Positions 4,042 through 43,069 of a DNA stretch of 64,000 nucleotides are shown in pieces. Made by a program: the position numbers and the translations under genes. Origin of the DNA: Tetrahymena elliotti 4EA (lineage: Eukaryota > Ciliophora > Oligohymenophorea > Hymenostomatida > Tetrahymenidae); NCBI GenBank assembly GCA_000231825.2, contig JH720332.1, forward strand, positions 345,766 to 409,765. The letters run 5' to 3'. Under the pieces are notes generated by a model. That model was given only the letters and a program-made list of their open reading frames with translations, was not told the DNA's origin and ran no database searches. Position 1 is the first letter of the stretch; every line of letters starts with the position of its first letter.

Positions 4042-4274
4042 ATCAATAAATCAGTCAATTAAATTAAATGAATAAGGCATCAAAAATACTTACAATTCTA
4101 ATTTTAATAAAAGTGTCATACTTTTATTCAATATATTTTCAATATTTTGAATATACTAATAACTGTTCCCTAATAATTTATAAAGAAACATATTTACTTT
4201 CATTATAATTTATTCATAGATTAAATCAAATAGATTTGTTAATAAGAATTTAGGTTAAAGGTAATATAGGAAAA

Positions 4275-6246
4275 ATGGACTAAAAAAGCTAAGTTTCATA
4301 GCAATAAGATAAGATTAAACAGAAGCTAGTCAGGCATATAGAAAATAGGTAGAAAATCAGAAAAATTTATGCAGATAAGGGCATCTAAATGCTTGACAAA
4401 CAAGATCTATTACGTAAATATTCTTTTTTACATTTAAATTATAATAATATTTCTCATTTAATGATCTAAAAATTATTTTTCCATTTTAAGTTGCTCATTT
4501 ATTTTTTACATTCAACCTGTATTATTTTAAAGATAAGTTACTTCTACCATTATTTTATATAAAAATACCAATAGTTGAGGATATTTAAGATCCAATTTTG
4601 AATGCCAATTAGAATGATATCTACAATGCAATGTAAGGCGAACTATCTCAAAAAGGATATAGCCATTTTAGGTTTTTAGGATAAGGAGCATAAGGATTAG
4701 TCGTTCTAGCTAAAGATTAGTTAACTAACAAGAGATTTGCCATCAAAGGAATACAAATCAAGGATTCTAAAGGAAACGTTGATCAGCAAGCTGTAAAATA
4801 GGTTAATCAAGAAATTAATATGCTCAATGAATGCAAAGGATCACCATATGTTGTCAATTTCGTAAGAAAAATAGAAGGATAACAGTTTGTATATCTAGTG
4901 CTCACAGAATGCTTAGGTAAAAAATAGAAAAAGCAGATTATAATCAATTAAAAAATAATATAAGATGCAAGATAACCTTTAGTAATTTTTAAAAAAAGGA
5001 ACTCTTAATCAAATCATTTAAAAGAATCCAGATAAGAAGTTGAATGAATTATCAGCTATTAAGTATGCCAAAGATATTGCTGAGGGCCTTTACTTTATTC
5101 ACTCAAAGAAGTGTTTAGTCAATGATCTTAAAATGGATAATATTCTTATAGATTATAATGGAAATGCAGTTATTTGTAAATTATTTTTATCAATAAAAAG
5201 AAAGAATCACTCTTATTTATTAATTTTATTTATTACTTACTTACTAGCTGACTTTGGATTGGCAGATAATCTCCCTAAATAATCAGGATATGCCTTGAAT
5301 TTATATGTATTTTTAAGTAAACTACATATCCTCTCATATCAAATAAATTTGTTGGTTAATTCAGATGGGCAACGTTGCATATTAGGCACCTGAGTGCTAT
5401 GATCCACAACATTTTGACACTTACTTTTTAGAATACTAAAACTTAGGAATTGTTGTTAAAAGAGAGCCAAGTTAAAGAGTAATTCATTAACTTTTTGCTG
5501 AAGAGAATATTTATTTATAAAAATTAACTAATTTTATAAAGAGTGAAGCATGTTCATTAGGTAAATAAACCAATAGAAATGATAAACGTAATAGCAGAAA
5601 TTATTTTTAAATTGATGATAGGCTACCTAATTTACACTATGATTTCTGGATTCAGTAGCAGCATGATGTTCAACAAGCACAATCCTTTACCATACAAGCC
5701 AGAATTCTAAAACTTCACTTACAAGAAGCAACTTCAATACATAATTGATGGATTGACTTAATTTATCCCAAGAAATAGGTTTGAGATCAAAGATGTTTTA
5801 ATTATATTAAAAGGAATTATTTCATTTGAATTTTCTTTAGATAGTAGGTTTATCGAACTCGTTGAAGCTGAAGAAGAAGAAGAATCACTTTAACAATTAA
5901 TAAAAAAATTCAAGAATGAAATTGAATTGGTTCAGCACTTTGAAAATAAGTTTTATCCAGTCATGTATGTAGCTTTTTAAACCCTCTGATAATTACCTCT
6001 AAATATTTTTATAGTAAAAATGAGTAGAACTTACTTTAGCAACTTTACTCAAAACAATCTTAACAAGTTGATTCCAAATTAGAAGAACTAAATTAAAAAA
6101 TAAAGAGCTTGAATGAAACTATTTAGCAATTACAAAATGAAAAGAAATAATATTAGAATTATACTAACAAGTAATTAGACTTTGTTGATTTCATAAATTT
6201 AAATGTGACTTATTAAAGATTCTTTCCAAAATACTATTTAATTTGA
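4275..6246 (+). CDS. Protein kinase, copy 1 (7 exons, Ser/Thr-type fold)
   Basis: Exons read as 4275-4413, 4575-4916, 4999-5175, 5248-5306, 5365-5560, 5598-5968 and 6028 onward; all junctions keep frame. N-terminal basic helix, then the kinase fold: glycine loop GQGAQGLVVLAK, Lys in FAIKGIQ, helix-C Glu in NQEINML, catalytic loop VNDLKMDNIL (His and Arg of HRD replaced, catalytic Asp, Lys and Asn kept), DFGLAD, then YQAPE. Subdomain IX is degenerate (KSEACSLEIIFKLMIG; Asp, Trp and Gly changed). A coiled-coil tail follows. Activity is plausible but uncertain given the altered HRD. The last exon either ends at TGA 6244-6246 or splices at 6170 (AACAA followed by GTAATT, phase 2) into the micro-exon ladder. 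Copy 2 lies at 21.1 kb. Confidence 0.8.
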
Positions 6247-6461
6247 GGTTTTAGATCAATAAACAACAAAAATACATTTAAGAAAATCAAAAAATTAATT
6301 CATTAGATAACTTGGTTTATTTACTGGCTTTATGAATGAATATATATGTTAAAAGATCTTTTAAAATAACATCCTTATTTCTTAAAAAAATTAAAATTCT
6401 TTTGTTAAGTCATTTGAGATCATTTGGAAAATTTACTATTTTGTAATAATAATCAAAACAG

Positions 6462-7981
6462 GAAGTAATTATTCGATCTTATTTGCATATTAAACACAAA
6501 ATAATGGTTTAACTAATTAGAAAGTATCCTTTTTCAAATTGCTTTTAATTATGCTAATTAAATGATCTTATTGTTCATTATTAACAGAGGGTAAGCAGTT
6601 CAAAATATCATTTTTTCTTTATTTACTTTTCTTTTATAAAAAGCTAGTAAAATTATCAACATTCCTCATTTGTTTGCCAAAATAATTCATTGATTCTAAT
6701 TTTATAAAGTCTGTAAAATTTTAGCTGCTTCTTTTATCTTCTTTACAACTAATTAGAATATACAATCTTCTAATCAATTATTTTTATTTCAAAAGCTAGT
6801 AATTTCTTAAATCATAATGAATCCATTCATTTCATAATTATTTTCATATTAAAAATAGCTAGTAATTAATTAATATTCTTGAAGGATTTTAGATTGAAAG
6901 ATGATGAAAATCATGACCATGCAGCATTCTGAATTTATTTATTTATTTTCATATTAAAAATAGTGTGTAAAATAAAAAAATATTGATTGAAAATAAAAAA
7001 TTTTTTTAAAATAAAATTTAGTTTGTAATTTTTTGGAGATGAAATTAAAAATACAAAAACTATTTGGTAAGATAACTAAATAAATAAATAAAATATAAAA
7101 TAAAGAAAGTAAATTTTAAGATAAATTTTGAAGATTAAAAGACATTTATAACTTTGAAAATAAAAGTGAGTAAGGAGTTGTTTAAAAATAAATAAATAAT
7201 AAATTAACTTATTAACTATCTATTAGTATATTTGTTTTTTAATTAAATAAATAATTAGATAGTTAGTTAGTTATTTAAAAATTGCAGATATTTATAAATT
7301 CCTTTAAAACTAAAATAGGCAGTAAAATTACTAGATAATTTTTGATTAGTTTTGTTTAAATCTAAAAATCTGTAATGACAAATAGGAAGTAATAAATACA
7401 TGCCAATAAACTAATTTGAATTGTTGACATATTTATTATCTAAAATATAATCTAGGGAGTAATTTTTAAGTTTTTTTACATAAGTTAAGTCAGAATTAAC
7501 TTAAATACGAAATGTAGATAGTAATTATTTTTAAAAAAAACTTAAATTAAAATATTTATTTATTTAATTATTAAAAAATAGGATGTAATTAATGACTTAT
7601 GTTTTCTCTAATTAACTTATGATCAAATAAATCTAAAAATAGCGGGTAGTTTATTAATTGATGAAAAATTTATTATAATAATATCTATACAAATCATAAA
7701 TATTTATTTTAATAAATGTGTTTAACAATTATTAAATAATTAATAGATGGTAATTAATAATTTATCCTTTTTGGTTTATAATGAGAATAAACTATGATTA
7801 AAAAAGGATGTAAATATAATTTAAGCTGTATGAAGCAGAATAAATAATCAATATTTATTTTGAAAATAGCAAGTAATATTTCGACTTATTTTCAGTTAGA
7901 AAGAAGAAATTAAATAAAAACAAAATAGGCGGTAATATTAAATTAGAAATTATTGAAAATTAACTAATATTTTATTAGCGA
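6462..7981 (+). other. Micro-exon block A (exons 1-22)
   Basis: First bases of the 3-nt exons: 6462, 6521, 6588, 6644, 6710, 6796, 6859, 6964, 7022, 7106, 7167, 7319, 7386, 7456, 7518, 7582, 7643, 7747, 7807, 7870, 7929, 7979. Each follows AG and precedes GT; the donor is GTAA except 6521 (GTATCC) and 7643 (GTAGTT). Exon 7167 is TGA as a triplet, harmless in phase 2. The 149-nt gap 7170-7318 may hide one more exon (ATA at 7259-7261 with a weak GTTAGT donor). Confidence 0.8.
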
Positions 7982-10900
7982 GTAAAAATTTCATTTGATG
8001 ATTTAATGCAATTTTAGTAAGAATACTATGATAAATTTGAAATTAATAGAGATATCGAGAAGTAAAATTGTTTGAAAGATTTATGCTTTTCAATAAAATA
8101 TACTTATTTTGTTAATGCTAAAGAGGAGAGTAAGGATTTAAAATGAAAGTTAACTTAAATTGATAAATAAACATATTGTCTAAAACATTCAAACAGTGGG
8201 TAATATCGTTTAAATGAATCAATTTTAATATATATGATTTAATTTAATTCAATAGTTAGTAAATATTTTACTCAAAATAATTTCTCCTTAAACAAAATTG
8301 AACAAAAACCACAAACATAAAAGGAAGTAAATTAATTAATAAATAAAATAATTCACTCCTTTATTTGATTTTAATCAATTTCAACATGTTTTTTATTTAA
8401 AAATTTTTAAAATATGAATAAATAGCATGTGAGATCAATTAATTAATCTTAGCTAGTACAGAAACTCAAAATTTTATCATATTTGTATTTAGGATGTAAT
8501 AAATAAATAAATTAATTTCTTATTTCATTTATTTTTTTTTTAATTAATAATTTCTTAATCCTTGATACTAATAAATTCTTATACAAACTAAACTAATTAG
8601 ATTGTAAGAAAATTGAACAACTCTTTTATCCTTTATGCTTGAACATTTTATTTCACAATTTAAAAAAAGATGGTAAATTTATTTTTATTTTCTTAGTTTT
8701 ATTCTAAATTTAACTTTATATTTAATATAGGGAGAAGTAATTCTTAACATTTTATTTCTAAGAAGAAATTTTAAACTTCTTGAATATCTAAAATAGCTAG
8801 TAATTTTTCACTATGTTAATTCTAATAAATATTAACAAAATAACTATTATAATAGTTCGTAGAAACTTTAAAGGATTTAAATTGATTTTAAGAAATGAAT
8901 TTTGATATTTAAAATAGTTCGTAATACTTTCAATTATTGATTTCTTTCTAAAAATATTAACCAATTTTAACTTATTTACATAGGGAGTAAGAGAAATACT
9001 TTGTGACTTTAATTAATAAATTTTATAAAGGAAATAGTAAATAAATAAAATTACTTGTATTAATAGGATTAAGTATATTTTTGATAATAATTAGGATGTA
9101 ATCTAATAATTTATTTAAATTTAAATTAAACAAATCAAATCAACAACCAACCATAAAATAGAGGGTAGAACTTGAAATACTTTTGAGTAGAATATTTTTA
9201 ATGTTTTTTAATAAAATAGGAGGTAAAATTTTAGAATGAAGCTTAAAGAAGATGGAGAATATAATTTATTTAATATCTAAATAGAGTGTATTAATTCTTA
9301 TTATTTCAATTCTAATTAAAATATTAATTTCTTTTTAAATAGTTCGTAATATTTTTAATTGGACAAGAAAAGAACTCAATTGATTAACAGACCTTCTTTT
9401 TTTATAAAAAGATTGTAAAAGATATTAAAACTCTATCTATTTCAATACTACTAAAATATTTTTTCTATTAATTCAAAGAATGTAAGTTAGCATTTAGAGG
9501 TTCTCTAAACTAAAAATAGTTTTAATTTTTTATTTTTAATTGCAAAACAGCAAGTAATTTCTTTAGATAATTTAAAATAAAAATGCTAGAATAAATTTTA
9601 AATAAACAAGTGGGTAATCTAATCTATATCTTCAAATAAATTTGATAGAAATAAATGAATTAATGGATTAACTTTTAAACAGAGAGTAAGAATTATTTTA
9701 AATTAGAAAACAAAGCTAATTAATACAAAAAACAAATTTAAAAGAAGGTAAATTAAATTTTTAATGGCCTTACTGGATGTAGATAAGTTAATCACTTACT
9801 CTTATTTCTCAAAATAGAATGTAAATAATGCTTTGATCAAATTGCTATCAATTCACTAATAATGTTGAGTTAACTGTTATTTGAAAAATAGTTAGTAAAT
9901 TTTAAATTTTATTTCAAATTCAAATATTAATTATTTATTTTATAAATTAAATTATAGTCAGTAATAATTTTTGATGATTCTAGTTAGACTGATTAATAAT
10001 ATTTTAAAATTTATACTTCAAAATAAAACAGTTGGGAGTAATATTATTTATTTATGAAAAGCTTTTTTATTTAAAGTAAATTTATTTAAAAAACTAATTC
10101 AAAATAGCTACGAGTAATATCTGAAATAATTTAATATTGAAAAATATTAAATTTAATTTTCAAATTAAAATAGCAAGAGGTATCAAACATTTTCATAAAT
10201 TTTAACTGAAAAATATTAAAATAAATTTAAAATCAAAATAGTAAAGAGTAATATTATAAAATGATTTAATATTTGAAAGAGGCTGATCTATTTTTTTAAT
10301 TCTAAATAGAGAGAAGTAATATTCTTGATTCAATAAATTCATTTATTCTTTTAAATTTTTAACCAACTTTAAAAATAAAAACAGCTTGAAGTAATATTGA
10401 AATGATGAAATATTGATAGTACAATACATCAAATACTTTTTAAAAAAACAGATCGTATGATTACAAATTAATAAAAGTTTAAAAAATGAATTGAACTTGA
10501 TTTTTGAAATATTATATATTAGATTGACCAAGTAATACTTTAAATTAATTTAAATACAAAATTAATGGCTAAATTAAATGACTAAATACATTTTTTATCA
10601 AAAATTGAAAATAAAATCTGGAAAATGTAAAAATATGTTTTGAGTTGACTCTGATTAATATTTAAATTAGACCGTAAACCATTTTATTTTATGGAAAAAT
10701 AAATAATTGAATAAATTTAACATAAAATAAAGGAAGTAAAATTTGATTGTGAAATTTAAATAGCTTATGAAAATTGCTCTATTAAATTAAAATTCAATTT
10801 AGCATGTAATTCTTTTTAAATTTTTCTAAATTACAAAAATGAATGTAATACTTTATTGAATAATTCTAAAAGCGAGTAAGATTTATCAATGTTTAGATGA

Positions 10901-11255
10901 AGTATCTATTAATGATTAAAAATAAATAGATAGTAAATTTTTGATGGGAAAACTCAGTATCAATCAGACTTTAATTTAAAATAATTAATCATTTTAGCGA
11001 GTAGATTTTTGTTTTGATTAAGACTTTGATTTGATTAATTTTAAATAAATATAACAGACTGTAAAATCTATCAATTCAGAAAGATTTTATTAATCAAATT
11101 AAATAAACCAACCTAAAACAAACATAGCTTGTAATAGATTTAACCTGTTTTATTAGATGTCATTAATTCAATAACTTTTTTAATTAAGCTGGTAAAATTA
11201 ATATCTGAAATGAATCTTCTTTTATTTTTGTTTAATTGTTGGTATAAAAAAGATA
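6462..11255 (+). CDS. Micro-exon ladder: ~70 exons, mostly 3 nt, encoding ~82 aa
   Basis: A run of acceptor-exon-donor units, typically (A)nATAG or ACAG, then a tiny exon, then GTAAN, recurs about every 60-70 nt for 4.8 kb. I read 70 exons: 59 of 3 nt, nine of 6 nt, one of 9 nt (10523-10531) and one of 12 nt (8050-8061). All are multiples of three. Joined with every intron in phase 2 they give one open frame of about 82 codons, with fragments KKGYLYYVLNEQKEQIGW, GRVSLINGERIYHWDYDK and LTKPNIEYELF, ending at a TGA split between exons 11189-11191 and 11253-11255. Composition (K, E, N, I, Y, D, with AAG, GAG, AAC, ATC codons) fits a ciliate protein. No family recognised. The 5' exon is unresolved: either an own start upstream or kinase copy 1. 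Intron lengths of about 47-105 nt are normal, so recognition is presumably by intron definition. The frame, not the ladder itself, is the less certain part. Confidence 0.82.
8050..9960 (+). other. Micro-exon block B (exons 23-52)
   Basis: Larger exons: 8050-8061 (12 nt), 8124-8129, 8731-8736 and 9031-9036 (6 nt each). First bases of 3-nt exons: 8197, 8256, 8324, 8426, 8453, 8493, 8601, 8670, 8797, 8856, 8918, 8984, 9095, 9162, 9220, 9285, 9343, 9412, 9479, 9551, 9611, 9683, 9745, 9818, 9892, 9958. Exon 8453-8455 is doubtful: it leaves introns of 24 and 37 nt, whereas dropping it leaves one of 64 nt, with no frame change either way. Confidence 0.8.
10032..11255 (+). other. Micro-exon block C (exons 53-70), including a run of 6-nt exons
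   Basis: Six consecutive hexanucleotide exons: 10032-10037, 10108-10113, 10174-10179, 10242-10247, 10310-10315, 10385-10390. Then 3-nt 10452, 9-nt 10523-10531, and 3-nt exons starting at 10671, 10733, 10803, 10873, 10930, 10998, 11058, 11128, 11189 and 11253. A further AAA unit at 11374-11376 and a bare AG/GT at 11313/11314 lie beyond the predicted stop. The 139-nt intron 10532-10670 is twice the usual length. Confidence 0.8.
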
Positions 11256-12315
11256 GTAAAACTTTTGAATTCGAAATAAAAGCAAAAACTAATTATTTTT
11301 GGAATTCTATTAGGTAAAATTATTGTTAGAAATATTTACTTTAAGACCGACCACTCATCATTATGTCAAACAGAAAGTAAATTTATTCTAAACACATCTT
11401 CTTTTTTATACAAAATAAAAAAATGAATTTTAACAAAAGTTGGAAAACCAATAAAGGAGTGTCATTAGATTTAAGAAATACTAAAATAGAATCAATAGAT
11501 GACGATATATGAGACACACCTAAAACATTAAATAAAATGGAAAATGAAAATAGATAAATAAGTTATAATATGTAAAACCTGTAATTGATTTATGTAATGG
11601 TTACTTGTATATTTATATGTTGTAAACTTAATTTATTAATTAATTTTTTTTTTTTTTGAACAAACAAAATAAAGAAAATAAAGCATCATTTTATAGATAA
11701 TATCTATTAATTTTTTTTCCTTTTGAGTCGTCATTCTATTCTAAAAAACTAAAAATATTTTCTAAGATTATTTTTTTTAACTTTGAACTTTTAATGAGAT
11801 AAATAAATTCAATCAACAAAAATTTTAAATTTAAAGAAAATAATAAATTGATTTTGAAAAAACAAACAAATTTAAGAGAAATAATAAAAATTACATAATG
11901 CTGCTAAAAGAGAGAAAGAATACTTTAGTTTGAAAAATAAAGATAGAAATATTTTTTGATAAAAAAATGATTAAAGATTATTTTTCATTGTTATCCATAA
12001 ATTTATCTCTACAAATTAAAAATAAAAAGAGTTAATTAATATCAAAAACTTTTTTTAATCTTTTTTACTTTTAAATTAAAAGATTTTTTGGTTGATCTCA
12101 ATATTTAATCTATTGGATCTATTGTTAAATAAAAAATAAAATGAAACATTAAAATTGTTTAGATGTATGAATTTTACTTGCATCAATTTCTTATGGAAAT
12201 TACTAAAACAAGAAGTTTTAATGAGGATTATTTATTACTTTTTTCAGAGCAATATTTCTTTTAAATAATTTTTTTAACTACTTAAAAATAGCAAAAGGTA
12301 CTATTTATTATAGAG
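11256..12315. other. 3' flank of the ladder, no further gene recognised
   Basis: Contains one more micro-exon-like unit (11374-11376) and an acceptor at 11438-11439 followed by a short open stretch. These could be untranslated terminal exons of the ladder transcript. The rest is low-complexity AT-rich DNA. Confidence 0.4.
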
Positions 12316-13164: not shown

Positions 13165-16100
13165 TCATGTCATTTGTGGAATTTTTTGGTAAACTTTAAG
13201 AAGCAATTCCAATTTGTTGCTATAACATAAAAGAATATTAAATATGAGAGTAAAAAGGAGTTAATGCTATAAATAGCTAAAGTAGTATGAACATTTTGGA
13301 ATAATAGCTTTGAAGTTTAAAAATGGTTCACTAAACTATTGTTCAATTTCATTGCAATCTGTTTAGTTTATTTCATCATACCCAATTTTACAGTTACAAG
13401 AGCAGTCTATTGAGTTAAATTCTCTAGTTTTTGAGCTGCACATAGAACAACCTTCGCTTGAGTTAGGAATCCAACAATACTCACAGCTTATGTGGCAAGG
13501 AAACTCTTCTCCGTATTATATACAAGTTTATCTATTAGAACAAAATTAGCAGTATTCTTAACATTCTAAAGAGCATGTTTAAGAAATCTCATCAAAGAAT
13601 ATTCCTCTTTTATATTAAAATTTTATATTGAAATTGAAATCAAAAAAAACTAGATAACTCAAAAAAGTAAAAATACCTTAAAATCTTATTTTAGGTTAAA
13701 TTTTAATAAAATACAAATTTTAGTTTTTGATTTATTTTCTTTAATCACCTATTTTAAAATTAGATCTTTGATAAGTTAGGATAATAAGTGAGGTTATTGG
13801 GTAGATTTTAAATAAAATTGATAAATTAAGATTATAAATAAGTGAAGTTGGTTATTGGGTAGATTTTAAATAAAATTCAACAAATTTTCAAAAAAGTAAA
13901 ATACTTTCCACAAAACTTGCAAGCTCCTTTAAAATTTTAAAACCCATTTTTACATTTCTAGCACAAAGGAAGAAATTTTTCTAATACTTCACAATTTTCA
14001 ATGGATGGGTTAATCAGGCACTGCTTTTAAGATTAGTTGTAGTAAAAAGTTTCATCTGAGCAAACACAAGCCGAAAAAATTCTGTTAAAAGTAAATTTAG
14101 AAGGGCATTCGCATTTACCTGTCATAGGTTGATACTCCATTAAATTTGAGTCTATACAATCACACTTTTTTTGCAAATTGTTGTAAGTAAAAGTTTCTTT
14201 ACATTCACAATTTTTTGTGAGTGAGGGATAGACCATATTTTGAAGATCTATACATTCACATTTTTACTTGTTATTATTAAATTTCATCTAAATATTACAT
14301 TCACATTAAGCTATGTTCTAATTATATTGCATATTAGTAGCATCAATACAAATACATTATTTCTGATTTTTATCAAAAATCATAAATTATTTGCATTCAC
14401 ATATTCCTGTAGTAGAATTATATTTCATGTTAATTGCATCTATGCAATCACACAATTTAGATACATTATTAAAAATCATTGTTTCTTTACATTCACATAC
14501 AGTATCATTATATTACATATTAGTAGCATCAATACAAATACATTATTACTGATTTTCATCAAAAGTCATAAATTATTTGCATTCACATTTTCCTGTATCT
14601 GCGTTATATTTCATGTTAATTATATCTATGCAATCACACTAGTTAGAAACATTATTTAAAGTCATTGTTTCTTTACATTCACATTCAGCTAACTTATCAT
14701 TATATTGCATTTTAGTCGCATCAATACAAATAAATTATTACTGATTCTCATCAAAAGCCATAAATTATTTGCATTCTCATTTTCCTTTATCTGAGTTAAA
14801 TTTCATATTAATTATATCTATGCAATCACACTATTTAGATGCATTATTTGAAATCATTGTTTCTTTACATTCACATTCAGCTAATTTCTAATTATATTGC
14901 ATATGAGTAGTATCAATACAAATACATTATTACTGATTCTCATCAAAAATCATAAATTATTTGCATTCACATATACCTGTATCTGAGCTATATTTCATGT
15001 TAATTATATCTATGCAGTCACACTATTTAGATTCACTATTAAAAATCATTGTTTCTTTACATTCACATATATTTTTTACAGGGTTATATGTCATCTTTAT
15101 TAAATCTAAACATTCGCATAGTTAGGGAAGAATATCGAATTTCATAGTTTCTTTGCATTGACATTTTCTCTCATTTTAGTTAAAGTCCATTTTTTATGCA
15201 CCAATGCAAATGCACTAATTTTTATTAATGTCGAATTTCATGGTGTCATTATCTAAGCAAGAGCATATTTATTTTGAGTCATCATATTGCATGTGAATTT
15301 AATCTACACATTAACATTTTTATAGTGTTGGGTTTTCAATCATTGTTTACTTATCCTGACATTCACATTTTTTTGCATTCTAATTTATAATCATAGATGA
15401 ATCAATACATTAGCATTCATTTGAATTAAATTTCATGTAGATTGTATCAATACAAACTAAGCAATTTTAAGTGCTGTTTTCGCATGTTAGGCAAAAATCA
15501 CCACATTTAATACAAATATTTATGTCTCTAACTTCATCACGTGTTAAATAGTAACCAGAAGGACATGCTTAGCATTTTTCTTCAAAATTAGCTAAACTGC
15601 CAGAGCATTTAATCATTTAAAATATAAGGAGTTAAGATTAAATCCCTTATAATTTCGAATCAGACCATGAAGAATAACTTATTTCAATTTAATTATTATT
15701 AGTAAATTAATAAGACATTTTCTATCTGATTTAGTGATTTTTTTAATAATAGCCTGTCTATCCAATCATGAAGCAATACTAAATATATTCTTCAGGACAA
15801 TAATATTTCGAATCAATATTATAAGATGTCGTTCCTTTCTAAATTGAATTTGTAAGTGTTTTGTATTAAAGATCTTCTTAGCGATAGATCTTATAATACG
15901 TTGAGCTACCAATATCATTTTCTTCATAATAAATATAATTAATACTAATAAATGTAATATCGTTACCATCCTATTTTGAAAAAGTAAAGTAGAATCCATC
16001 ATCTTTTGTTTCAGTATTTTCTATAAATATACTTTATTAATAGTTAGAGCTAGAACTATATAACACACCTGTTATGTATGGATATACTACCATTTAATTA

Positions 16101-16531: not shown

Positions 16532-17453
16532 CTCAAAAAGAAATCTTTATTACAATTACTAATTTTTAATGTTTTCTTTAATTTTGTTTTTTCTTTCCTT
16601 ATCTATTTTATCAGAAAATAAATTAATCTCTCTCTGTAAGTAAATTGCCTAAATATTTTCTTTGTCTAAATCTGAAAAGCAAATTTCTTCTTACACTAAT
16701 AACAATTATTAAGACAAACATCACATTTTTTTTGTTTCAAGCTTTAAATTTTTTTCATCTTTTTAAGGTAAAATAAATACTTGTAACCATAGACCAAATA
16801 AATAAAGAAGATTTTTAATTTTTGGTTGCTTTGATTTTCTTTCTAAAAAATAAATTACATAATTTCTTATCATTCATTAACTGTAAACAGTTCAAAAATT
16901 ATCAAAAGTTAAACTAATCGAAAAGAACTAAGTAAAATTAGATTTTGAATTTATTTTATCAAAAAACAAAATATTAATTTATTTACTCAAATTTCTTCTT
17001 TAAATTTAAATTTATTTGCAAATAATAAAAGTAAAATAAAAAATAAATTTATTTACTCAAATTACTTCTTTAAATTTAAATTTATTTGCAAATAATAAAA
17101 GTAAGCAATTTAAATTTTATCAGAAATTTTTCAGCCATTTTTGATAGATTTCTAAGATTATTTTTTAATTAAAGAAAATATATGATGTGCTTCTTCTTGA
17201 TAGTCTTTTTACAGAAATATTTCTTTAAAATTTTTTTTAACATCAACATTTTCAAGTTTTATAAAATGGGTATTAATATAAGAGGATATTAATTAATGAG
17301 AACTTACAGTATTTAATTTATTGTAAATTTAACTTTAAAAGTTTAGAAATCTAGATTTCCATTATCGATTAAATTATTTATTATTTTCTGTACCTTATTT
17401 TTAGCTTCTTTTTTTGAAAATAAATTAAAATAAATTTGCTATTTTCTCACTAG
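16532..17453. other. Spacer between divergent units; LRR array 5' end not found
   Basis: Upstream of the first clear LRR exon of the plus-strand array and of the start of the minus-strand Cys-rich gene. A start exon for the LRR array should lie here or further upstream, but I could not identify it. Confidence 0.4.
16976..17104. repeat. 59-bp near-perfect tandem duplication (period 70)
   Basis: Copies at 16976-17034 and 17046-17104. Both run from AATTTATTTACTCAAATT to AATAATAAAAGTAA, differing by about one base. Such a fresh duplication suggests recent slippage or repair. Confidence 0.85.
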
Positions 17454-20301
17454 TTAGAATTATCTTGGCACAGAAGTAGCAAAAAATATTCTAAAGAACT
17501 TAGATAAGTGTAAAAATATGAGTTGTTTAATTCTCAATCTGAAGTAATTTTGCTCAATATTAATTTTATTAATAAACATATCATTAAAGAACCAATAAAA
17601 GAAAGAAAGAAATAAGTAAAGAAGGAAAAGCTGCTTGAGATTGAATATTCATTTATTTATTTCTTTCTTTCTGACTTCCAATTTTCCTATCTTTTATTTA
17701 TTACTTCAAAACAAAATATTATTTTCTAGTAATTAAGATAATATTGATGCAAAAATAATATAAAATATTGGATTAAGCTTAGAAAAGTGCTAAAATATCA
17801 ATTCTTTGTATCTGAATCTTAGGTAGATTTTTAAACACTCATTTTATTAAACAAATGATTAATTAAGTACAAAACAAAGAACTAAAGAAAGTAAATAAGT
17901 AAGAAAGTTCAGCTGTTTTAGATTAAATATTTATTTATTCATCAAACAAACAATCAATTTATTATATTTATTTATTTACCTATTTCATTTTTATTAACTT
18001 TTCTTATTTGTCAAAACAACAAACAAAAAAAATTGTTATTTTCTGAGTAGTCGAAATCGTCTTGGTGCAGTAGGAGTAAAAAATATTGGAATGAGCTTAG
18101 TAAAGTGCCAAAATATCATTTCTTTGGATCTCAATCTTGGATAATTTGTTAAAGTTTTCAACAAATTATTAATTAAGCACCTAATTTTTTACTTCTTCTT
18201 ACTTTTAATTTTTTATCTAACATTTATTTTTTTCTAAACAAATTTGTTCATTTCTGAGTAGAGACAATAATCTTGGTGTAGAAAGAGCAAAAAATATTGG
18301 AATAATCTTAGAAAACTGCCAAAATATCATTTCTTTAGATTTAAATCTTGGGTAATTTTGTTAAAGACTGTTTTTGACAACAAATTTTTAATTACGCTCA
18401 AAACAAAGAACTTATTTTTTACTTCTTACTTTTAATTTATTTATTTATCATTTCTTATATTCAAAACAAATTTAATCAAATTTGTTATTTTATGAGTAGT
18501 TAAAATATTCTTGGTGTAGAAGGAGCAAAAAATATTGGAATGAGTTTAGAAAATTGCTAAAATTTCACCTCTTTGAATTTTGGTCTTCGGTAACTTTGTT
18601 AAATACTAATTTTATTCAACAAACGATTAATTAAATATAAAGCAAAGAATTAAAGAAAGAAAGTGAATAAGTAAGCAAGTTAAAGCTGCTTTATTTAGAT
18701 TAAATATTTGTTAATCAATCAGTTTTTATATTTCTTTACATATTTTTTACTTTAAATTTTCTTATCTATTGTTTAAAAATAATTTAAAAAAACTGAGTAG
18801 TTCAAATAATCTTGGGGTAGAAGGAACAAAAACTATTGGAATGAGCTTAGAAAATTGCCAAAATCAGTTTTTTGAATGTAATTTTGTTAAATACTGATTT
18901 TATTCAACAAATGATTAATTAAAAAACGAAGAACCAAAAAAAGTAAATAAGAAAGTAAGTAAGTTAAAGCATTAAAGCTGCTTTAGATAAAATATTTATT
19001 TATTAATCAAACAAAAAATATATTTAGAAATTTAGTTCCTTATTTCTTTATTTCTTTATTTCTTAACTTTCAATTTTCTTATTTCAAAATAAATTAAAAT
19101 AATTGTTATTTTCCGAATAGTGGAAATCATCTTGGTGTAGAAGGAGTAAAAAATATTGTATTGAGTTTAGAAAAGTGCCAAAATATCACCTCTTTGACCC
19201 TCTATTTTGGGTAATCTTATTAAACGCTGATTTAATTACTTTTTAAGGAAATTATTAATTAAGAATAAAAGAACAAAAAAAGTAAAGCAGACAATTAAAA
19301 CTATTTTTTATTAAATATTCATCAAATAAATAATCAATTGATTCAATTTTCTTCCTTTTTATTTTCAAAATAAATTACAAAAAACTTGTTATTTTTGAGA
19401 AGTTGTAGTGATATCAAATTAAAAATTTTCAAAAATAAATATTTCAAATCTAAGCTAAGATGATTTTAAATTAAAGTGATTATTACATAAAATAATTATT
19501 TTTTTTCCATCACCTTAACTTAGAGAACTGAAAGTACAAAAGAACAGAAGAAAATAAAGAAATAACTAAGAAAATAAAACCTGCTTTTGATTAAAAATCT
19601 TTATTTATTAATAATAAAATCAATCAATTAAGATATTTATTTACTTCTTTGTATCTTACTTTTAATTTACTTATCTATGACTTCTAATTTTCAAAATAAA
19701 TTAAAACAAATTTATTATTTTATGAGTAGCTACAATATTTTTGGACGAGAAGGAGCAAAATATATTAGAATGAGCTTAGAAAAGTGCTAAAATATCAGTT
19801 TTTTGAATCTCAATCTTAAGTAATTTTCTGAAATACATATTTAATTTTTCAAAGTGCAAAGTAAAGAATGAAGCAAAGTAAATTAGCAAGTAAGCAATAA
19901 GTAAAAGCTGTTTGAGATAAAATATTTATTTATTAATCAATGAAGGATATTTTTATTTGCTTATTTCTTTATTTCTTACTTTTAATTTTCTTATCTATCA
20001 TTTATTATTTTCAAAATAAATTTTTTATTTTCGGAGTAGTGGAGATTATAATCCAAAAAAATTATAAGAAATGAAATGTGACAAATTTTAATTATTTTAT
20101 AAAAAAATATTTTCTTTCATTTTTTAAAACTCACCCCCTCTCCTGCCCTAGAATGATAATTAAATAGATGATATTAACAAAATGATTATTAAAGATAAAT
20201 CAAGTACTTTCAAAAAAAGAATAAAAAACTAACAAGGATAAGTGGGTAATAATTTAAAGAGGAAGATATTTTAAATAATTTTAAGCTCGAGCTAAAGATG
20301 A
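17454..20301 (+). CDS. LRR protein encoded one repeat per exon (array 1)
   Basis: Exons read: 17454-17543, 17730-17822, 18051-18140, 18262-18351, 18500-18589, 18801-18877, 19121-19210, 19730-19819 and a terminal exon 20040-20301 ending in TGA. Most are 90 nt, enter with one base and leave with two (phase 2), and encode a single LRR of the type NNLGVEGAKNIGMSLEKCQN followed by IxSLxLNL. Exons begin after a (C/T)TGAGTAG acceptor and end at GTAATTTTG. Exon 18051-18140 has lost its donor (GG/ATAATT). Exon 18801-18877 carries a deletion that removes the last strand and breaks phase. A relic near 19380-19440 is unreadable. The 5' end is unknown. The array precedes kinase copy 2 by 0.8 kb but is separated from it by a stop. 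Probably an intracellular interaction protein, possibly decaying. Confidence 0.7.
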
Positions 20302-21084
20302 ATATGCTTCTTAATAAAAGAAAAAGGGTAAATTGTTTGTCCAGATAAAAATATTTTTCTTTAGTATTTTTAAATAACTTTATTCAATAAATATGTTAGG
20401 ACTTCTATAATTATAAAATACATAAAAGAAGATAAATCTAACTCTTACATTTTAATTACATTTGTAAAATTGTACTTTTTGTTTCATTTTTATTTTTTTC
20501 AATTTTTTCATTCAAAATAACAAATATTTTTCAATGCTAAGAGGTAAATTGAGGACTCTTCATTTTTATAAGAAAAATACTTGGGTGAAAATATGAGATT
20601 CACTACTATTTTTTGATAGAAATAAAAAATATAAAAGTGTGTTTTTGCTTTTATGTGGTGAAAGATTAAACATCTTTAAATCGTTTTTTTCTTCAAAATA
20701 TGTTTCACTTCATTTGTAAATGAAAAACAAATAATTAAAAAAATTTTTTTATTAATTCACCTTAAACATAACTATTTTTTCTGAAGAAACAACAAAAGAA
20801 ATAAGAAAATTAAAAAGTTTTTATAATTTGTTAATCTGTGAATAAAACTAATAAAAATGAATTGAAACCTTTTGAATTCATCCTATTAATTAATTGATAA
20901 AATATATTTTTATGATTGAATACTTTTATTTAATAAAAATAGTAAAAGTTAAAATTTTTAAATATTCTAATATTTACACCCTAATAATTAAGAAGAAAAA
21001 TATTGCTATCATCTATTATTTATTCAATAATTCAATCAATTACATTTGTTAACAAGATTTTTGGTTAAAGGGATAATACGAAAA
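20302..21084. other. Intergenic, AT-rich
   Basis: No gene seen. The last 130 bases resemble, at lower identity, the 5' flank of kinase copy 1. Confidence 0.45.
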
Positions 21085-23209
21085 ATGGGTTAAAAAAGCT
21101 CTAATTAAAAGGATTAAGAGAAGATCAAAGAGAAGTTAGTTAGGCACATAGAAAATAGGTAGAAAATCAGAAAAATATATGCAGATAAGGGCATCTAAAT
21201 GCTTGACAAACAAGATTTATTGAGTAAGTATTCTTTTATACATAATAATGTTTCACATTTAATGATCTAATAATTATTTTTACATTTTAAACTGCAATTC
21301 ATTCTATTTTTTAGATTCAATCTATTATTTATATAAAATATTAATAGTTAAGGATATTTAAGATCCACTTATGTCAAATACCTTGTATGATATCTACAAT
21401 ACAATATAAAGTGAACTATCTCAAAAAGGATATAGCCATTTTAGGTTTTTAGGATAAGGAGCATAAGGATTAGTCGTTCTAGCTAAAGATTAGTTAACTA
21501 ACAAGAGATTTGCAATCAAAGGAATACAAATCAAGGATTCCAAAGGAAACGTTGATCAGCAAGCTGTAAAATAGGTTAATCAAGAAATTAATATACTCAA
21601 TGAATGCAAAGGATCACCATATGTTGTCAATTTCGTAAGAAAAATAGAAGGATAACAATTTGTATATCTAGTGCTAACAGAATGCTTAGGTAAAAAATAG
21701 AAAAAGCAGATTATAATCAATTAAAAAATAATATAAGATGCAAGATAACCTTTAGTAATTTTTAAAAAAAGGAACTCTTAATCAAATCATTTAAAAAAAT
21801 CCAGATAAGAAGTTGAATGAATTATCAGCTATTAAGTATGCCAAAGATATTACTGAGGGCCTTTACTTTATTCACTCAAAGAAGTGTTTAGTCAATGATC
21901 TTAAAATGGATAATATTCTTATAGATTATAATGGAAATGCAGTTATTTGTAAATTATTTTTATCAATAAAAAGAAAGAATCACTCTTATTTATTAATTTT
22001 ATTTATTACTTACTTACTAGCTGACTTTGGATTGGCAGATAATCTCCCTAAATAATCAGGATATGCCTTGAATTTATATGTATTTTTAAGTAAACTACAT
22101 ATCCTCTCATATCAAATAAATTTGTTGGTTAATTCAGATGGGCAACGTTGCATATTAGGCACCTGAGTGCTATGATCCACAACATTTTGACACTTACTTT
22201 TTAGAATACTAAAACTTAGGAATTGTTGTTAAAAGAGAGCCAAGTTAAAGAGTAATTCATTAACTTTTTGCTGAAGAGAATATTTATTTATAAAAATTAA
22301 CTAATTTTATAAAGAGTGAAGCATGTTCATTAGGTAAATAAACCAATAGAAATGATAAACGTAATAGCAGAAATTATTTTTAAATTGATGATAGGCTACC
22401 TAATTTACACTATGATTTCTGGATTCAGTAGCAGCATGATGTTCAACAAGCACAATCCTTTACCATACAAGCCAGAATTCTAAAACTTCACTTACAAGAA
22501 GCAACTTCAATACATAATTGATGGATTGACTTAATTTATCCCAAGAAATAGGTTTGAGATCAAAGATGTTTTAATTATATTAAAAGGAATTATTTCATTT
22601 GAATTTTCTTTAGACAGTAGGTTTATTGAACTAGTTGAAGTTGAAGAAGAAGATAAAGAATCATTTTAGTAATTAATCAAAAATTTCAATAATGAAATTG
22701 AATTGGTTCAACACTTTAAAAATAAGTTTTATCCAGTAATGTATGTAGTTTTTTAGATCCTATGATAATTACCTCTCAATATTTTTATAGTAAAAATGAA
22801 TAGAACTTACTTTAGCTACTTGACTCAATAATTGATTCAAAATAATCTTAACAAGTAGATTCGATGATACATTAAGTTCGTTGTTTGAATTAAATAATTA
22901 ATTAATTAACTAAAATAGGTTACAGTTATTGAAGAACCAAATTAAAAAATAAAGAGCTTGAATGAAACTATTTAGCAATTACAAAATGAAAAGAAATAAT
23001 TATACAATTATCCATAGAATAACTAACATTTTGTTTAAAATAAATAAGCTTATTCTAATTAGGTATTCAATTAACAAATATCAACTTAGCCAAATCCAAG
23101 TCAAAAAGATAATTCATTGAAGTAAGAGCCTTAGAAAAAAGAAGAAATTAAATTGTTTTAGCAAAATTTGAAAATGCAATAGAAACATAATGTTATTTCC
23201 ATTAGATGA
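21085..23209 (+). CDS. Protein kinase, copy 2 (8 exons, intact tail)
   Basis: Exons 21085-21223, 21348-21689, 21772-21948, 22021-22079, 22138-22333, 22371-22744, 22804-22854 and 22919-23209 (TGA); every junction keeps frame. Same domain order as copy 1: basic N-terminal helix, glycine loop GQGAQGLVVLAK, AIK lysine, NDLKMDN catalytic loop, DFGLAD, YQAPE, degenerate subdomain IX, coiled coil. It ends in a Gln/Asn-rich tail of about 70 residues that copy 1 lacks. The core is almost base-for-base identical to copy 1, introns included, while exon 1, the start of exon 2 and the 3' end have diverged. The last exons differ in structure: copy 2 has an extra intron (22855-22918), and copy 1 leads toward the micro-exon ladder. 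Confidence 0.85.
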
Positions 23210-25085: not shown

Positions 25086-25910
25086 AGATCAAGTATTTTA
25101 TCTTTTTTATCTATTCATATTATTAGTGATTTGGAATCCTTATTTTTTTGGATGAGATATTCATATATGTATAATTAATAATTTTTAAAAATTTTAATTT
25201 ATTTATATAATTATTTAATCAAATTTTTATTTTAGCCTTTTTTCAAATTTTTTAAGATAAAATTTAAATTTGTAACAAAATCTTTTATCTTTTTCTACTT
25301 GGTTATTTTTCAAATAACTCTCTTCATATCTATCTTTATATTTCTAATCAAAGATTCCTTAACCATTATTATAATTATTATTTTTTCATCCCTTTTTATT
25401 GAACATCGTTAATTCAATAAAAGGTTCCTCTTCCCTATCTTATATTTTTTGTATTCCACTTTAATCTCTTACGAATAAAATAATATTATATTAAAAATCT
25501 ATTCTTTTTAAAAAGTAATTTTCACATAATTAAATTTTGCTCACAAAAGTCTGTGTGTTGGTAAAAGAAAATGATAAAATCTAATTAAATAATAATATCA
25601 ATAGTAATAGAATAAAAAAATCTTTTTATAAACATTAAATGGAAAGAAAAACATTAAAACAATTTAAGAAATCTAAATTAAAAAAGTAACAAACAGAATT
25701 TAAAAATTTGATACCAAATTAAAATAGGTACTTTCATTTTTTTAATTGTTCTAAAAATAAATTTTGCTAACTATTTGAATAATAAAATCATACATTTAAC
25801 AATTTATTGTACATATTAATGCTTGAGATATTGTTCATTCTTCATAATTGAATGTTAATTTGTTAATAGACAAATAAACTAAAACCACAGTTTTAAGGAA
25901 ATAAAATTAC
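25086..25910. other. 3' flank of the minus-strand LRR array, nothing recognised
   Basis: AT-rich DNA without a supported frame on either strand. Confidence 0.4.
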
Positions 25911-28900
25911 TTTATTCCAATCTTTAATGATTTGATAGTTTTGCAAATCTATTAACTACTTAAATTGATCTGCAGTTTTTTCATAAGAATTTTTATTTGG
26001 ACTATAATAAAATCATTTTTTTTATTAAAGAGAAATTTAAATTTGAATAAATTTTATATATTTTATTGATTAAATAATAAGAACTAGTTTATTCTAGGTG
26101 AAGACTTAATTAGTAATTTTTTTGACATTTTAACAAATAATTTTAAATATAGGAAATCCCAATATTGCCAATGTGATTAATATTATCTAAGTTAATAATG
26201 CAAATTTTTTATTTATTATTTTAAGAAGTAAATAAAACATAATTAATTAAGAATAGCTTAAATAAAATTACTTTAATTCGATTTTTAATAAAGTTAGATT
26301 TTTTTGATTAAGTAACTAGCCTTCAAAATTATTATTTTTATTTCCTTGATTTAAATTTAACTTGAAAACAATAATTTTTGAACTAATTTTATGAAAATGT
26401 TTTTTTATTTCTTAATAATAGTAACTCCCCTTAAATATTCTTACTAAAATACAAAATCAGTCAAAAAAATTTTTTTAATAAATGATAATTGATATCATAA
26501 AAATATAAAATCAAAATACAAAAATAATATTTAGAACTTTGTTTTGTTAACTTTTAAAATAATAATTAATTAATTTTGTTAATTCTTCTCTAATTATTTT
26601 TTAATTTTCTTTGCTATTACCAAAGTAACAAGTAGAATTAAAAAATTTGATCTCAAATTAAAATAGGTTTTTAAATTTTTTTATTATTTTAAAAATAAAT
26701 TTTGTCAAATACATAAATCATAGAAATATAAATATAATAATTTATTTTATATTTTTTGCTCAAATTAATGCTTGAGATATTGTTGAATCTTCATACTAAG
26801 TGCTATTTATTAATTAAAAAATCAACAAAAATGAACATTTTAATTAAATAAAATTACTTTATATTAATCTTTAAAGATTTAATAGTTTTGCAGCTTGATA
26901 AACTACCTTTAAAAGAATCTGCAGTTTGGTTTGTTATTTTATTATTGCTAAATAGAATAATTTTAAAAAAATAAGATACAAGCAATAAAATATTTAATTA
27001 CTTCAGACTTAGATTTAGATATTTTAAATTTTATTATTTCATTATCAAACTTTGGATATTTAGAAGTGAATCATCCTCTAAATAGTTTTGGCTGATATTA
27101 GTTTTTAAATAATATGAATAAATTATATTATAATCTAAAATTAAAATGCTACTCCAAAATTAGACTCATGTTAGATATACTTTGACAGGAATCAATTAAA
27201 AGACAAATAAATTAACCCGTTTCATTAAGTAATTTATTATTCCTAAAAATTAGGGTAAAATAAATAAAAATAATCAGTCAAAAATAAATTGAATTTTATT
27301 AAGTATGTAAAAAAATATTCTTCAAAAGATTATTACACCAAACTTAAATAAATGTGAGTTATTTTTGTAAGTTTTATCAAGGAAAATATAATTTGTTCAA
27401 TTCCTTCTGAGGTAATATTATTTTCACTTAATTTAAAAATTGATAATAAATAAATACAAATGTAAAACTGAATGAAAAAAATAAAAATAAGACAATAAAA
27501 TAAATTTACTTCAAACTGAGACTCAATTTAGTTATACTTTCATATTTTTGTATAAGTTAAGAAATCACTTCAAGTCCTTGGTCAGAAATTTTATTTTTAC
27601 TAATAAAAATATTTTTTTTTTTAATTTTAAGAACACGAAAGAAAGAATAAATCTCATATTTTTTATTCATTAAAAGAATAAGTAATTGTTTACTCTAGAT
27701 GAAGACTTAATTCAGAAATGTTTTCACATTTTAAAAATGAATCTCTAATATAGGAAATCCCATTATCACCAATAAGATTATCACTATCAAAATTAATTAT
27801 GTAAATTTTGTAAATATTATTCAAAGAAGTAAATGAAACTTAATTAAATTACTTTAATTAGATTTTATAAATTAAATACTTAACCTTCATAATTATTATT
27901 TTCAAATCCTTTGATTTAATTTTAACTTTAAAAAATAATTTTTTAACTATTTTAATATAATCGTAATTCCCCTTAAAATAGTCTAACTAAAATATAGAAG
28001 GTATTTATATATATATGTGTATAAATTTTAAAATTTTTATTTTTTTAGTTCGATATGAGATAGACAGTCTAAAGAGAAATTAAAGTATATTAAGAATAAT
28101 ATTTAGATGAATAATTATACTTTAGAAATAAATAATTAATTTTAAAATTTACTTCATATTAATTTCTATGCCAGTAAGATTTTAAGAGTTTGGAATGGAG
28201 TAGATAATATTTTTTAGCCCTTAATATTTGATACAATTTTAACTTTTTTTGTTTTATAAATTTATTAATTGATTTTTTTAGTGAAAAAACAAATTTCAAA
28301 AAATTAATTGAATGGAATAAGAATGAAAGAAAGAAAAATTAAAAAACTAAATTAAGGTTTAAATGTTTAACATTTTTTAATTTTAGTAAACTTTTGAAAT
28401 AGCTTAATTAAGCTCCTTTATCAGAAATATCATTTTTAATGTAAAAATAATTTTAAAATACATAGATATTTGAGATTTTACCTTTTTCTAATTGAAAAAA
28501 AAAATAAATTCAGAGTGAAAATTACCTTAGCATAAGAACCAATACTTACAATTATTTAAACTTCTAAAAAGCCTTGGCAATTAGTTAAACTCCTTCATCA
28601 CGAATATTAATTTCACTAAAATAAATTTTAAATTTACTTAAACTAAAAGTAAAAATCTAATTTAAAAATTTTCAAATTCACTTGAATTCCAATTTATAAA
28701 ATAATTAAAATTACTTCATATTAATGTTTAAATATACTATATTCATCATATTATTTAGATATTTTGCTAAAATTGAACATATTTCTACTCCTGTATTATC
28801 ATCGGCTGGCCTATAATTTTTTTCCCTTTTTAAAAAAAGTGAAACATTTTTTAAAGTAAATTTAAGATAAAAAGAAAATTCATATTAAAAAAATAAAATA

Positions 28901-39131: not shown

Positions 39132-39820
39132 CCTGGATTATTACTTCAACTGTATGGGTTTTTTTATACTTGCTTTAAAGTTGTCTTGCCTTTTTCTAAT
39201 TATCTTATTCTTTTAATGTATCTATTTTTTTATAATCCTCCTATTAAATATTTTCTGATATATTTTTTTATTTAAGATATAAATTAATATATCCTTAATC
39301 GAAAAAATTAAGATACCTTTATTATCATTTTTTTATCAAATTTTTGAAAAACGAAACTTGAATATTTTTAGCAAATTTTATTCACCTAAAATTTTAATGA
39401 ATAAATATTCAACTATGTGTGAATAAAAAATAATCTATGGTGAATTGAAAAAAAAGAAGCTAAATTTAAAAAATTGATGTCTCAAAAATTCTTAATTATT
39501 AAATGAATATTTATTCTATCATAAATAAAAAATATTTTCAAAAAATCTATTTTAATTTATTTAATGATCTTTAAATACGTCTATTTCAAAAATAATTGTA
39601 TCTAAACAATTAAGTATCATAAAGTATCACTTAAATCTTGTAGATTAATTAGTATCCACTTTAATTAAGAAAGTAAAATTTTTCTATCACTTTCATCAGA
39701 AAAATTGATATGTGGGTAGGATAACTATATAAACTAATAATTACAATGGTTTTTAGATATTATATTGAGATAATTATTAATTAATTAATAAATTTATAAC
39801 TAAACAAAAAAAAAAAATCA
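39132..39820. other. AT-rich spacer upstream of LRR gene
   Basis: No gene recognised. It ends with a poly-A-rich leader directly before ATG 39821, and the same leader-plus-start region recurs at about 43.02-43.1 kb and 53.75-53.8 kb. Confidence 0.4.
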
Positions 39821-42515: not shown

Positions 42516-43062
42516 AATAATTATTAAGTTTAGTGGAATGATAGACAGATACTGTTTACTTTTAAATAATCTATTGATAATCAAAGATGAAAATTTATAT
42601 AAAATTATAATTAATTTCAACTTAATTAAGAAGCTAAATAAAAATCTTGTCTGAATATTAAAGCTTATTTATCTGTCTTAATCAGATTTATTTTATCTAT
42701 TTAAATCAATTTTTTAATTTAATTTAAAATAAATTTAATTATTTATTCTTTCTTGTTACTAAAATATTTTTTTTAATTCTAAATTTTTTCATATTTATTT
42801 AAAGATGTTTCAAAAAAGTAACCCTTGTATTTTTTTTCATTTATTTTTACGTATCCTAAAATTTTAAAAAATAAATTTTCAACTTTTGGTGAATAGAATA
42901 TCATCTTCAGATCTCAATATGAATAGAAAAAAATTTCTTTTTTAAATTTATTTTAATAATTGAATTATGCTTAAATATTTCATTTCAAAATAGTTTAAAT
43001 ATCATATTACAACACTTGTTAATTAATTAATAAATTCATAACTAAACAAATAATAAAAAAAA
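42516..43062. other. Spacer, no gene seen
   Basis: AT-rich DNA between the complete LRR gene and its broken neighbour. Confidence 0.4.
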
Positions 43063-43069
43063 AGAAGCA

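Follow-up and report, generated by a model that had tools for sequence, protein, structure and literature searches.

A ladder of about 70 mostly one-codon micro-exons as the probable C-terminal end of a protein-kinase gene in Tetrahymena elliotti

We analysed a 64,000-nucleotide stretch of the Tetrahymena elliotti 4EA genome (contig JH720332.1, positions 345,766 to 409,765 of the forward strand; hereafter the window, C40:345766-409765 in a genome of 90 Mb and 134 contigs), in which a protein-kinase coding region is followed by a long series of predicted micro-exons, most of them exactly one codon long, that we call the ladder. The GC content of the window is 17-26% in 2-kb tiles, and its long frames are open only if TAA and TAG are read as glutamine. 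On the plus strand, several ordinary exons make up the protein-kinase coding region at 4574..5962, as judged from a Pkinase match, from related proteins and from alignment with a second copy of the gene (copy B, see below). The last large exon follows at 6015..6170, its start inferred from the acceptor at 6014; it encodes a coiled-coil-like segment, ...QNEKKQYQNYTN, which runs out in NYTN plus the two bases AA, and it ends in phase 2 at the donor AA/GTAATTA (a slash marks the splice junction). The first ladder intron (6171..6461) is, with 291 nt, the longest of the set; its donor and acceptor are kept in four copies, and no conserved internal micro-exon was recognised in it by eye. The coding part of the ladder occupies 6462..11191 on the same strand and comprises 69 micro-exons (58 of 3 nt, nine of 6, one of 9 and one of 12). 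A predicted stop codon TGA is split between 11190-11191 (TG) and 11253 (A), and the TTC-TGA end recurs in six copies, A-F. Downstream of the stop lie a zero-length exon at 11313..11314, with the recursive-splice-like junction TTAG/GTAAAA, a 3-nt exon AAA at 11374..11376, which falls in the predicted 3' untranslated region (UTR), and a predicted last exon, 3' untranslated and of uncertain limits, at 11440..11620, for which the acceptor ACAAAAG was inferred and up to which (~11.6 kb) the DNA of the copies is conserved.

The micro-exon sites, 72 in all and 0-12 nt long, were located by demanding AG and GT. Their starts are (3 nt unless stated) 6462, 6521, 6588, 6644, 6710, 6796, 6859, 6964, 7022, 7106, 7167, 7259, 7319, 7386, 7456, 7518, 7582, 7643, 7747, 7807, 7870, 7929, 7979, 8050 (12 nt), 8124 (6), 8197, 8256, 8324, 8426, 8493, 8601, 8670, 8731 (6), 8797, 8856, 8918, 8984, 9031 (6), 9095, 9162, 9220, 9285, 9343, 9412, 9479, 9551, 9611, 9683, 9745, 9818, 9892, 9958, then 10032, 10108, 10174, 10242, 10310 and 10385 (all 6 nt), 10452 (3), 10523 (9), and finally 10671, 10733, 10803, 10873, 10930, 10998, 11058, 11128, 11189, 11253, the zero-length site 11313/11314 and 11374. 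This set corresponds to an earlier 72-exon chain corrected by hand at two places (8124-8129 and the zero-length exon 11313/11314) and contains 60 exons of 3 nt, nine of 6, one of 9, one of 12 and one of 0. The original prediction, made from the letters of this stretch, had described about 70 micro-exons, mostly of one codon, in 6462-11255; the ladder was indeed found there, and the 70 sites in this interval matched the predicted length counts exactly (59 of 3 nt, nine of 6, one of 9, one of 12). The same prediction had proposed a unit repeating about every 63 nt and a spacing suggestive of intron definition, with which the 71 introns agree, having a median of 62 nt, 61 of them spanning 53-71 nt, two being shorter (44 and 47 nt) and eight measuring 81-139 nt. 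Micro-exons have a GC content of 36% and ladder introns one of 17%. Micro-exon genes are characterised by many very short internal exons in succession, flanked by canonical splice sites, and the ladder part of the gene, and this part only, shows this feature.

On the plus strand of 6400-11400 the pattern AG-NNN-GTA[A/G] occurs 55 times, compared with 22 times over the remaining 59 kb of that strand, and it is absent from the minus strand of 6400-11400. When the exon in this pattern is given any other length between 1 and 15 nt, it occurs there 0-5 times, apart from 6 nt with eight occurrences. We also searched for chains of exons by dynamic programming with a flat exon-length prior (0-15 nt) that favours no length; the splice matrices were trained on the ladder itself and hence are not independent of it. 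The resulting free-length chain has 71 exons and 257 bits, and 70 of the 71 exons are multiples of three, the sole 4-nt exon having an alternative 6-nt reading, AGGAGA at 8124-8129, with the same donor. Site 7259-7261, which has the weaker donor GTTAGT, is outside this chain, yet it is kept in copies A, B and C. The top score among 200 dinucleotide shuffles was 12.2 bits and the longest shuffled chain had four exons; nine further 5.25-kb tiles, from 11.5 kb on, gave at most two exons on either strand, no second chain above 4.4 bits was found anywhere in the window, and nothing comparable to the ladder was present in other loci totalling 224 kb. AG and GTAA are frequent in AT-rich DNA, which speaks for a product of chance or of base composition, but neither the shuffles, nor the opposite strand, nor the rest of the window, nor the other loci yielded anything similar, and this reading, for which the original prediction had named a permutation check, is refuted by the shuffle test; we give it practically no probability. 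When exon order was shuffled 20,000 times, a run of six 6-nt exons came up once. Genome-wide, TTGATAGNNNGTAA was counted 134 times and a reversed control pattern 91 times, an excess that may reflect isolated 3-nt exons elsewhere or composition alone.

Judged by DNA similarity, the ladder is a member of a gene family, which goes beyond the original prediction. Matches within its own genome, self included, amounted to at least 73 pieces for 6050-8600, at least 10 for 8600-9700, at least 32 for 9600-11660 and at least 11 for 11050-11620. We compared, whole or in part, the window copy (A) with copies B (C24:299-306 kb), C (C24:64-70 kb), D1 and D2 (C24:38-46 kb), E (C82) and F (C40:601 kb, with stretches of N) and with a partial copy of 11 exons at C40:578 kb, and pieces of C50, C17, C56 and C106 were analysed as well. 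Chains without length preference, counted if they had at least five exons and at least 8 bits (5 bits for C56), gave 429 exons in 10 stretches, the window included and D1 and D2 taken as one stretch, and 426 of these exons are multiples of three; of the three others, two come from AGGAGA read as 4 nt, in A and in B, and one is a 5-nt exon in C17. Intact AG-3n-GT sites in register with the 72 sites of the window number 68 in B, 70 in C (with some entries set by hand), 47 in D1, 42 in E and 26 in F, the latter three copies being partly covered or containing N. Distant members retain the ladder as well, with 25 exons in C50 and 28 in C17 within the 3-4 kb analysed, and VLDEQKYDIGWINLDDF of C50 resembles VLNEQQKEQIGWIKREDI of the window. 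In the register comparison the entries at 9611, 8197 and 10523 were, except for A and B, set by hand from the free chains, and the 9-nt exon of C at 8124 was omitted for its unequal length; B was not hand-set, and A only by the two chain corrections. Copies also differ by whole codons, with 9 versus 6 nt at 10523 and 6 versus 9 nt at 8124.

The paralogues identified the reading frame. The original prediction had proposed joining in phase 2 to about 82 codons, and across the 10 stretches this was the sole frame of three without a non-terminal TGA: with offset 1, which places introns between codon bases 2 and 3, there were six TGAs in 482 codons, all terminal and one in each of six copies, compared with 27 in 499 codons at offset 0 and 18 in 482 at offset 2. 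Since only phase 2 is free of non-terminal TGA across the paralogues and yields proteins that are related, have a core in common and stop at the corresponding position, we take it as the frame, in which introns are of phase 2 throughout the ladder. Read in this way, 6462..11191 gives KKGYLYYVLNEQQKEQIGWIKREDIEKGDGQNMILWENYSSEKQIGRVSLINGERIYHWDYDKSKEENLKSLTKPNIEYELF, so that the window copy ends as GQNMILWENYSSEKQIGRVSLINGERIYHWDYDKSKEENLKSLTKPNIEYELF-stop and copy C as HQNMPLWESSDWKKQIGKVSLINGKKIYDWNDDLSDGENYKSCKLNCEYELF-stop; the C-terminus is YELF-stop in A, B, C, D1 and E and TLF-stop in F. Predicted tryptic peptides of the product include VSLINGER and GYLYYVLNEQQK. A conserved core at 9095..9613 (GAT AGG GAG AGT TTC ATT AAT CAA TGG, protein IGRVSLING) has only one or two states per exon among copies A, B, C, E and F, and the exons at 11128-11191 are likewise nearly fixed among copies. 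By comparison, the block at 10032..10531, made of the six consecutive 6-nt exons followed by a 3-nt and a 9-nt exon, is hypervariable, with 3-5 states per exon among five copies. The whole-codon (phase 0) frame, favoured initially by GC content at codon positions, was rejected on account of its 27 TGAs in the paralogues, and with it the TGA of exon 7167, which is a stop solely in that frame. It was a genome search with the phase-0 peptide that revealed the paralogues, its sole non-self match, at C40:578 kb, resting on the last exon.

The kinase upstream of the ladder gave a Pkinase match at E 3.3e-10 (open reading frame (ORF) 4602-5393) and shares 57% identity over 89% of the query with the T. 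thermophila kinase-domain protein P0001 (E 1.7e-141); its top 32 matches are all from Tetrahymena, which places it in a Tetrahymena kinase-domain family. No stop interrupts the 388 codons aligned between A and B. The donor CTAACAA/GTAATTA of the last large exon is identical in A, B, C and D2, and because its leftover AA fits the phase 2 of the ladder and the donor is conserved, we consider it very likely that kinase and ladder constitute one predicted gene. A kinase search of the genome listed 37 matches, and by our reading of the match lists there are 11 loci where ladder DNA is preceded, at no more than about 2 kb and in the same orientation, by a kinase exon, namely the window on C40, three places on C24, and one each on C10, C17, C50, C56, C82, C106 and C122. 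The original prediction made no mention of a kinase; that the ladder is the tail of a protein-kinase gene is now the most likely reading. An alternative first exon for the ladder, starting MNEYICQK... in an ORF upstream of 6462, was set aside, the kinase donor at 6171 being kept in four copies. The annotated T. thermophila relatives P0001, P0004, P0015 and P0020 have tails that by eye are dissimilar and do not contain the ladder peptide; these tails may represent read-through into unrecognised ladder introns.

Comparison of A and B, another addition to the original prediction, revealed that the letters of the exons changed faster than the introns around them. Between these copies 47 of 240 exon sites differ (19.6%; 67 exons, the final AAA, the zero-length site and four sites that B does not keep intact being excluded), compared with 149 of 3551 sites in intron cores (4.2%; Fisher 1e-16) and 13 of 1002 in splice flanks (1.3%; flank versus intron, Fisher p 2.5e-6). 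In the kinase, counted over six hand-chosen exon pieces of 388 codons with two more gapped, pS is 17/232 (0.073) and pN 23/932 (0.025), and the kinase looks to be under purifying selection. The ladder codons have pS 9.5/40 (0.24) and pN 35.5/188 (0.19), with dN/dS 0.76, and ladder pN exceeds kinase pS (p 3e-4). Ladder exons of this pair thus outrun both introns and kinase silent sites, with splice sites held. The excess is smaller between A and C, where 62 of 234 exon sites and 740 of 3370 intron sites differ. The exon state ATACAA at 10032 is common to the distant copies B and E, and states common to distant copies may point to convergence or short conversion.

Further paralogues suggest how such a ladder could grow. 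The unit around 6835-6970, which contains the micro-exons CTA and TGT with their 102-nt intron (6859..6966), is tandemly repeated in paralogues, with matches in C56, C24, C106 and others; arrays of ~80-110-bp units, each one 3-nt exon plus an intron, lie at C56:73922-74730 (L044), C24:43388-44315 (L042) and C106:137516-137849 (L045). Intron cores of the C56 array are 95% identical, whereas the exons match at 5 of 21 bases when neighbours are compared and at 12 of 15 at lag 3, which looks like the copying of a three-unit block; an earlier view that the exons of this array were randomised was withdrawn for this lag-3 match. The introns are 84% identical in the D2 array and 90% in the C106 array, where adjacent exons match at 8 of 33 and 8 of 15 bases, respectively. 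Copy A has one such unit and D2 eleven, and more units mean more codons, not smaller exons. The run of six 6-nt exons in the window fits the idea of tandem copying.

Taken together, we consider it very probable that the ladder is the C-terminal end of a protein-kinase gene family, encoding ~82 codons over ~70 micro-exons that are predicted to be joined in phase 2 and to end in a split TGA. The ladder itself, the multiple-of-three rule, the one open frame, the shared core and stop, the conserved donor, the 11 kinase loci and the tandem units are seen in the sequence and point in this direction. We propose that each ~60-nt intron would be recognised as a unit across itself, so that a three-letter exon would need no recognition of its own. 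Neighbouring introns would be removed one after another, because three-letter exons leave no room for two complexes, and the growing upstream exon would supply the next 5' splice site. The ladder would have grown by tandem copying of one codon plus one intron, an event which the frame would survive because the exon is a multiple of three and the phase is constant. The tail would be read as one frame behind the kinase and would form a fast-diversifying sequence around a conserved core, since between A and B the exons accumulated nearly five times as much change as the introns while splice sites were held; the conserved core with its hypervariable flanks suggests a recognition surface.

Several observations weigh against this interpretation. 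The splicing of the ladder is a prediction from genomic DNA alone. For a single copy, GC by codon position favoured whole-codon exons, and codon usage put phase 2 ahead by 13-15 bits, yet none of the three frames reached the null (-18 to -33 bits); dN/dS between copies singles out no frame. Silent changes in the A-B ladder are raised too (p 0.002) and to the same degree as the others, a pattern for which positive selection for amino acid change does not by itself account. The exon excess is not clear between C and D1 (exons 3/162, introns 27/2309), and between A and E exons are less diverged than introns (42/138 versus 816/2279). In copy B, four of the 72 sites are missing in register and the chain is broken into three. 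For some ladder DNA, such as that at C33 (two places), C40:601 kb, C3:1135 kb and D2, the kinase search listed no exon close by. Conversely, a kinase paralogue at 20920..22862 (K2, plus strand), 91% identical to 4118-6074, has an ordinary C-terminus, and the whole-window chain search found no ladder behind it. The introns of the window show no mutual similarity and so give no proof of duplication within this copy. No database protein with the ladder-coded peptide was found among 11 candidates at E up to 10, and the 48 kinase relatives listed among 7987 scored candidates matched the ladder peptide at E 0.17 or worse, although annotation would miss 3-nt exons, which tempers these database negatives. 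More generally, ladder peptides gave no significant match in Pfam, PDB or protein databases, and the phase-2 peptide none in Pfam and PDB and no leucine-rich repeat (LRR) match.

Other explanations account for part of these data. The three-letter exons might be the remnants of an older contiguous coding sequence into which near-identical introns were inserted, introner-like, at three-nucleotide intervals, and the C56 array, with its 95% identical intron cores and adjacent exons alike at only 5 of 21 bases, has the look of such insertion. Insertion does not, however, predict exons that are all multiples of three in one phase; paralogues with more units gain codons instead of having smaller exons, and the lag-3 match in C56 is what block duplication predicts. 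In addition, five of the eight contigs matched by the ~100-bp unit have a kinase exon within 2 kb upstream, with none listed for C24:43 kb, C35 and C95. We therefore regard introner-like insertion as improbable. Somewhat less probable still is a relay in which the 5-kb stretch is in effect one large intron near the gene end, cut into removable 60-nt pieces by stepping-stone exons whose letters are irrelevant to the protein. The near-constant spacing, the free variation of exon letters at many sites and the zero-length junction, TTAG/GTAA being kept in six of six aligned copies and in L030 as a ratchet-like junction in the predicted 3' UTR, are all compatible with it. Yet a relay would favour 0-nt exons, which account for one of the 72 sites, and it leaves unexplained why 482 phase-2 codons are free of TGA except at their ends while the other frames have 27 and 18, and why copy E keeps core and stop position although its introns differ by 36%. 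The neighbouring post-stop exon is preserved in similar fashion, as AG/ARA/GT in six of six aligned copies.

The original prediction had left open whether the ladder is functional or a selfish or decaying intron array. Decay of an array behind a kinase gene, the product of which is no longer made, would account for the four sites of copy B that are not intact in register, for the AG mutated to AA in one tandem unit of C56 and for the close kinase copy that has no ladder. However, between A and B the splice flanks changed at one third of the rate of the intron cores (1.3% against 4.2%), register is intact at 68 of 72 sites in B and at 70 in C (partly hand-set, as noted), and the distant C50 and C17 keep the frame. 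The balance leans towards function, and we judge decay very unlikely. A further reading is that the ladder serves as a codon-by-codon diversity cassette on the kinase tail, in which the unit of coding, copying and variation would be a one-codon exon with its own intron. Such units would multiply in tandem, could be added, lost or skipped singly without a break of frame, and would have their exon letters renewed faster than introns at all three codon positions, driven either by diversifying selection or by mutation aimed at micro-exons. We put this forward tentatively, as a possibility that we doubt more than we favour.

Elsewhere in the window, self-comparison identified diverged direct or inverted repeat families at 14295-15164, 17374-20067, 25677-27956, 39752-43724, 53979-54491 and 62965-63901, and an LRR protein fragment lies on the minus strand at 50930-51748 (LRR_1, E 1.4e-8), possibly one of the Tetrahymena LRR genes.

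If the ladder is transcribed and spliced as predicted, the spliceosome joins ~70 consecutive, mostly three-letter exons, which strict intron definition would best allow, and these genes would offer a tractable ciliate system for the order and fidelity of joining exons too small for recognition. It would also mean that genes are able to grow one codon at a time. The A-B pair, with exons that diverged ahead of the introns and splice sites that were held, calls for an explanation by selection or by mutation. Ladder-type genes could escape standard annotation, and databases may lack the tails of other Tetrahymena kinases; RNA-seq of T. thermophila, for instance, required at least 8 matching bases on each side of a junction (PMC3274533).

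Among the matches listed in open-licence PMC papers, titles and the beginnings of abstracts described no gene built mostly of one-codon exons. The following comparison draws on parts of the cited papers, in which the nearest known kinds are the micro-exon genes (MEGs) of schistosomes, the bicycle and megacycle genes of aphids and the 90-bp LRR exon arrays of Tetrahymena, none of them consisting mostly of one-codon exons. Very small exons as such have been reported as spliced, namely a 1-nt exon of Arabidopsis APC11 and single 3-nt exons (PMC4674806); these are isolated cases, whereas the ladder is an array. Long introns of Drosophila undergo recursive splicing at zero-length exons, or ratchet points (PMC8605326, PMC6110457), and the ladder resembles them in that an AG/GT junction would regenerate a donor and permit stepwise removal. 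It differs in that one of its 72 sites is zero-length, in the predicted 3' UTR, and the others add letters to the message. The Tetrahymena LRR genes have tandem 90-bp exons, almost all of phase 2, which expanded in a lineage-specific manner against a background of ~50-bp introns (PMC6564038). They share with the ladder the tandem exon-intron units, the phase and the genus of the nearest kinases; the ladder, however, has exons of 0-12 nt in place of 90-bp LRR exons, no LRR match, and a kinase family as host. Aphid bicycle and megacycle genes have small internal exons, nearly all of phase 2, and diverge fast, one gene having more than 100 micro-exons (PMC9168663). The internal exons of the ladder are likewise of phase 2, a likeness of gene architecture, and the scale differs, with a megacycle product of ~2000 amino acids on more than 100 micro-exons compared with ~82 codons on ~70 exons here. 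Finally, MEGs of Schistosoma mansoni have 10-20 exons of 6-81 bp (3-81 in the abstract), most of 15 bp, introns of 0.1-5 kb and secreted products with a signal peptide, and are hard for automatic annotation (PMC10526429). The ladder has in common with MEGs internal exons that are numerous, tiny and for the most part divisible by three in length, and the variable multigene family, and is set apart from them by its ~70 sites, most of exactly 3 nt, by its introns of ~60 nt and by its place behind a ciliate protein kinase.

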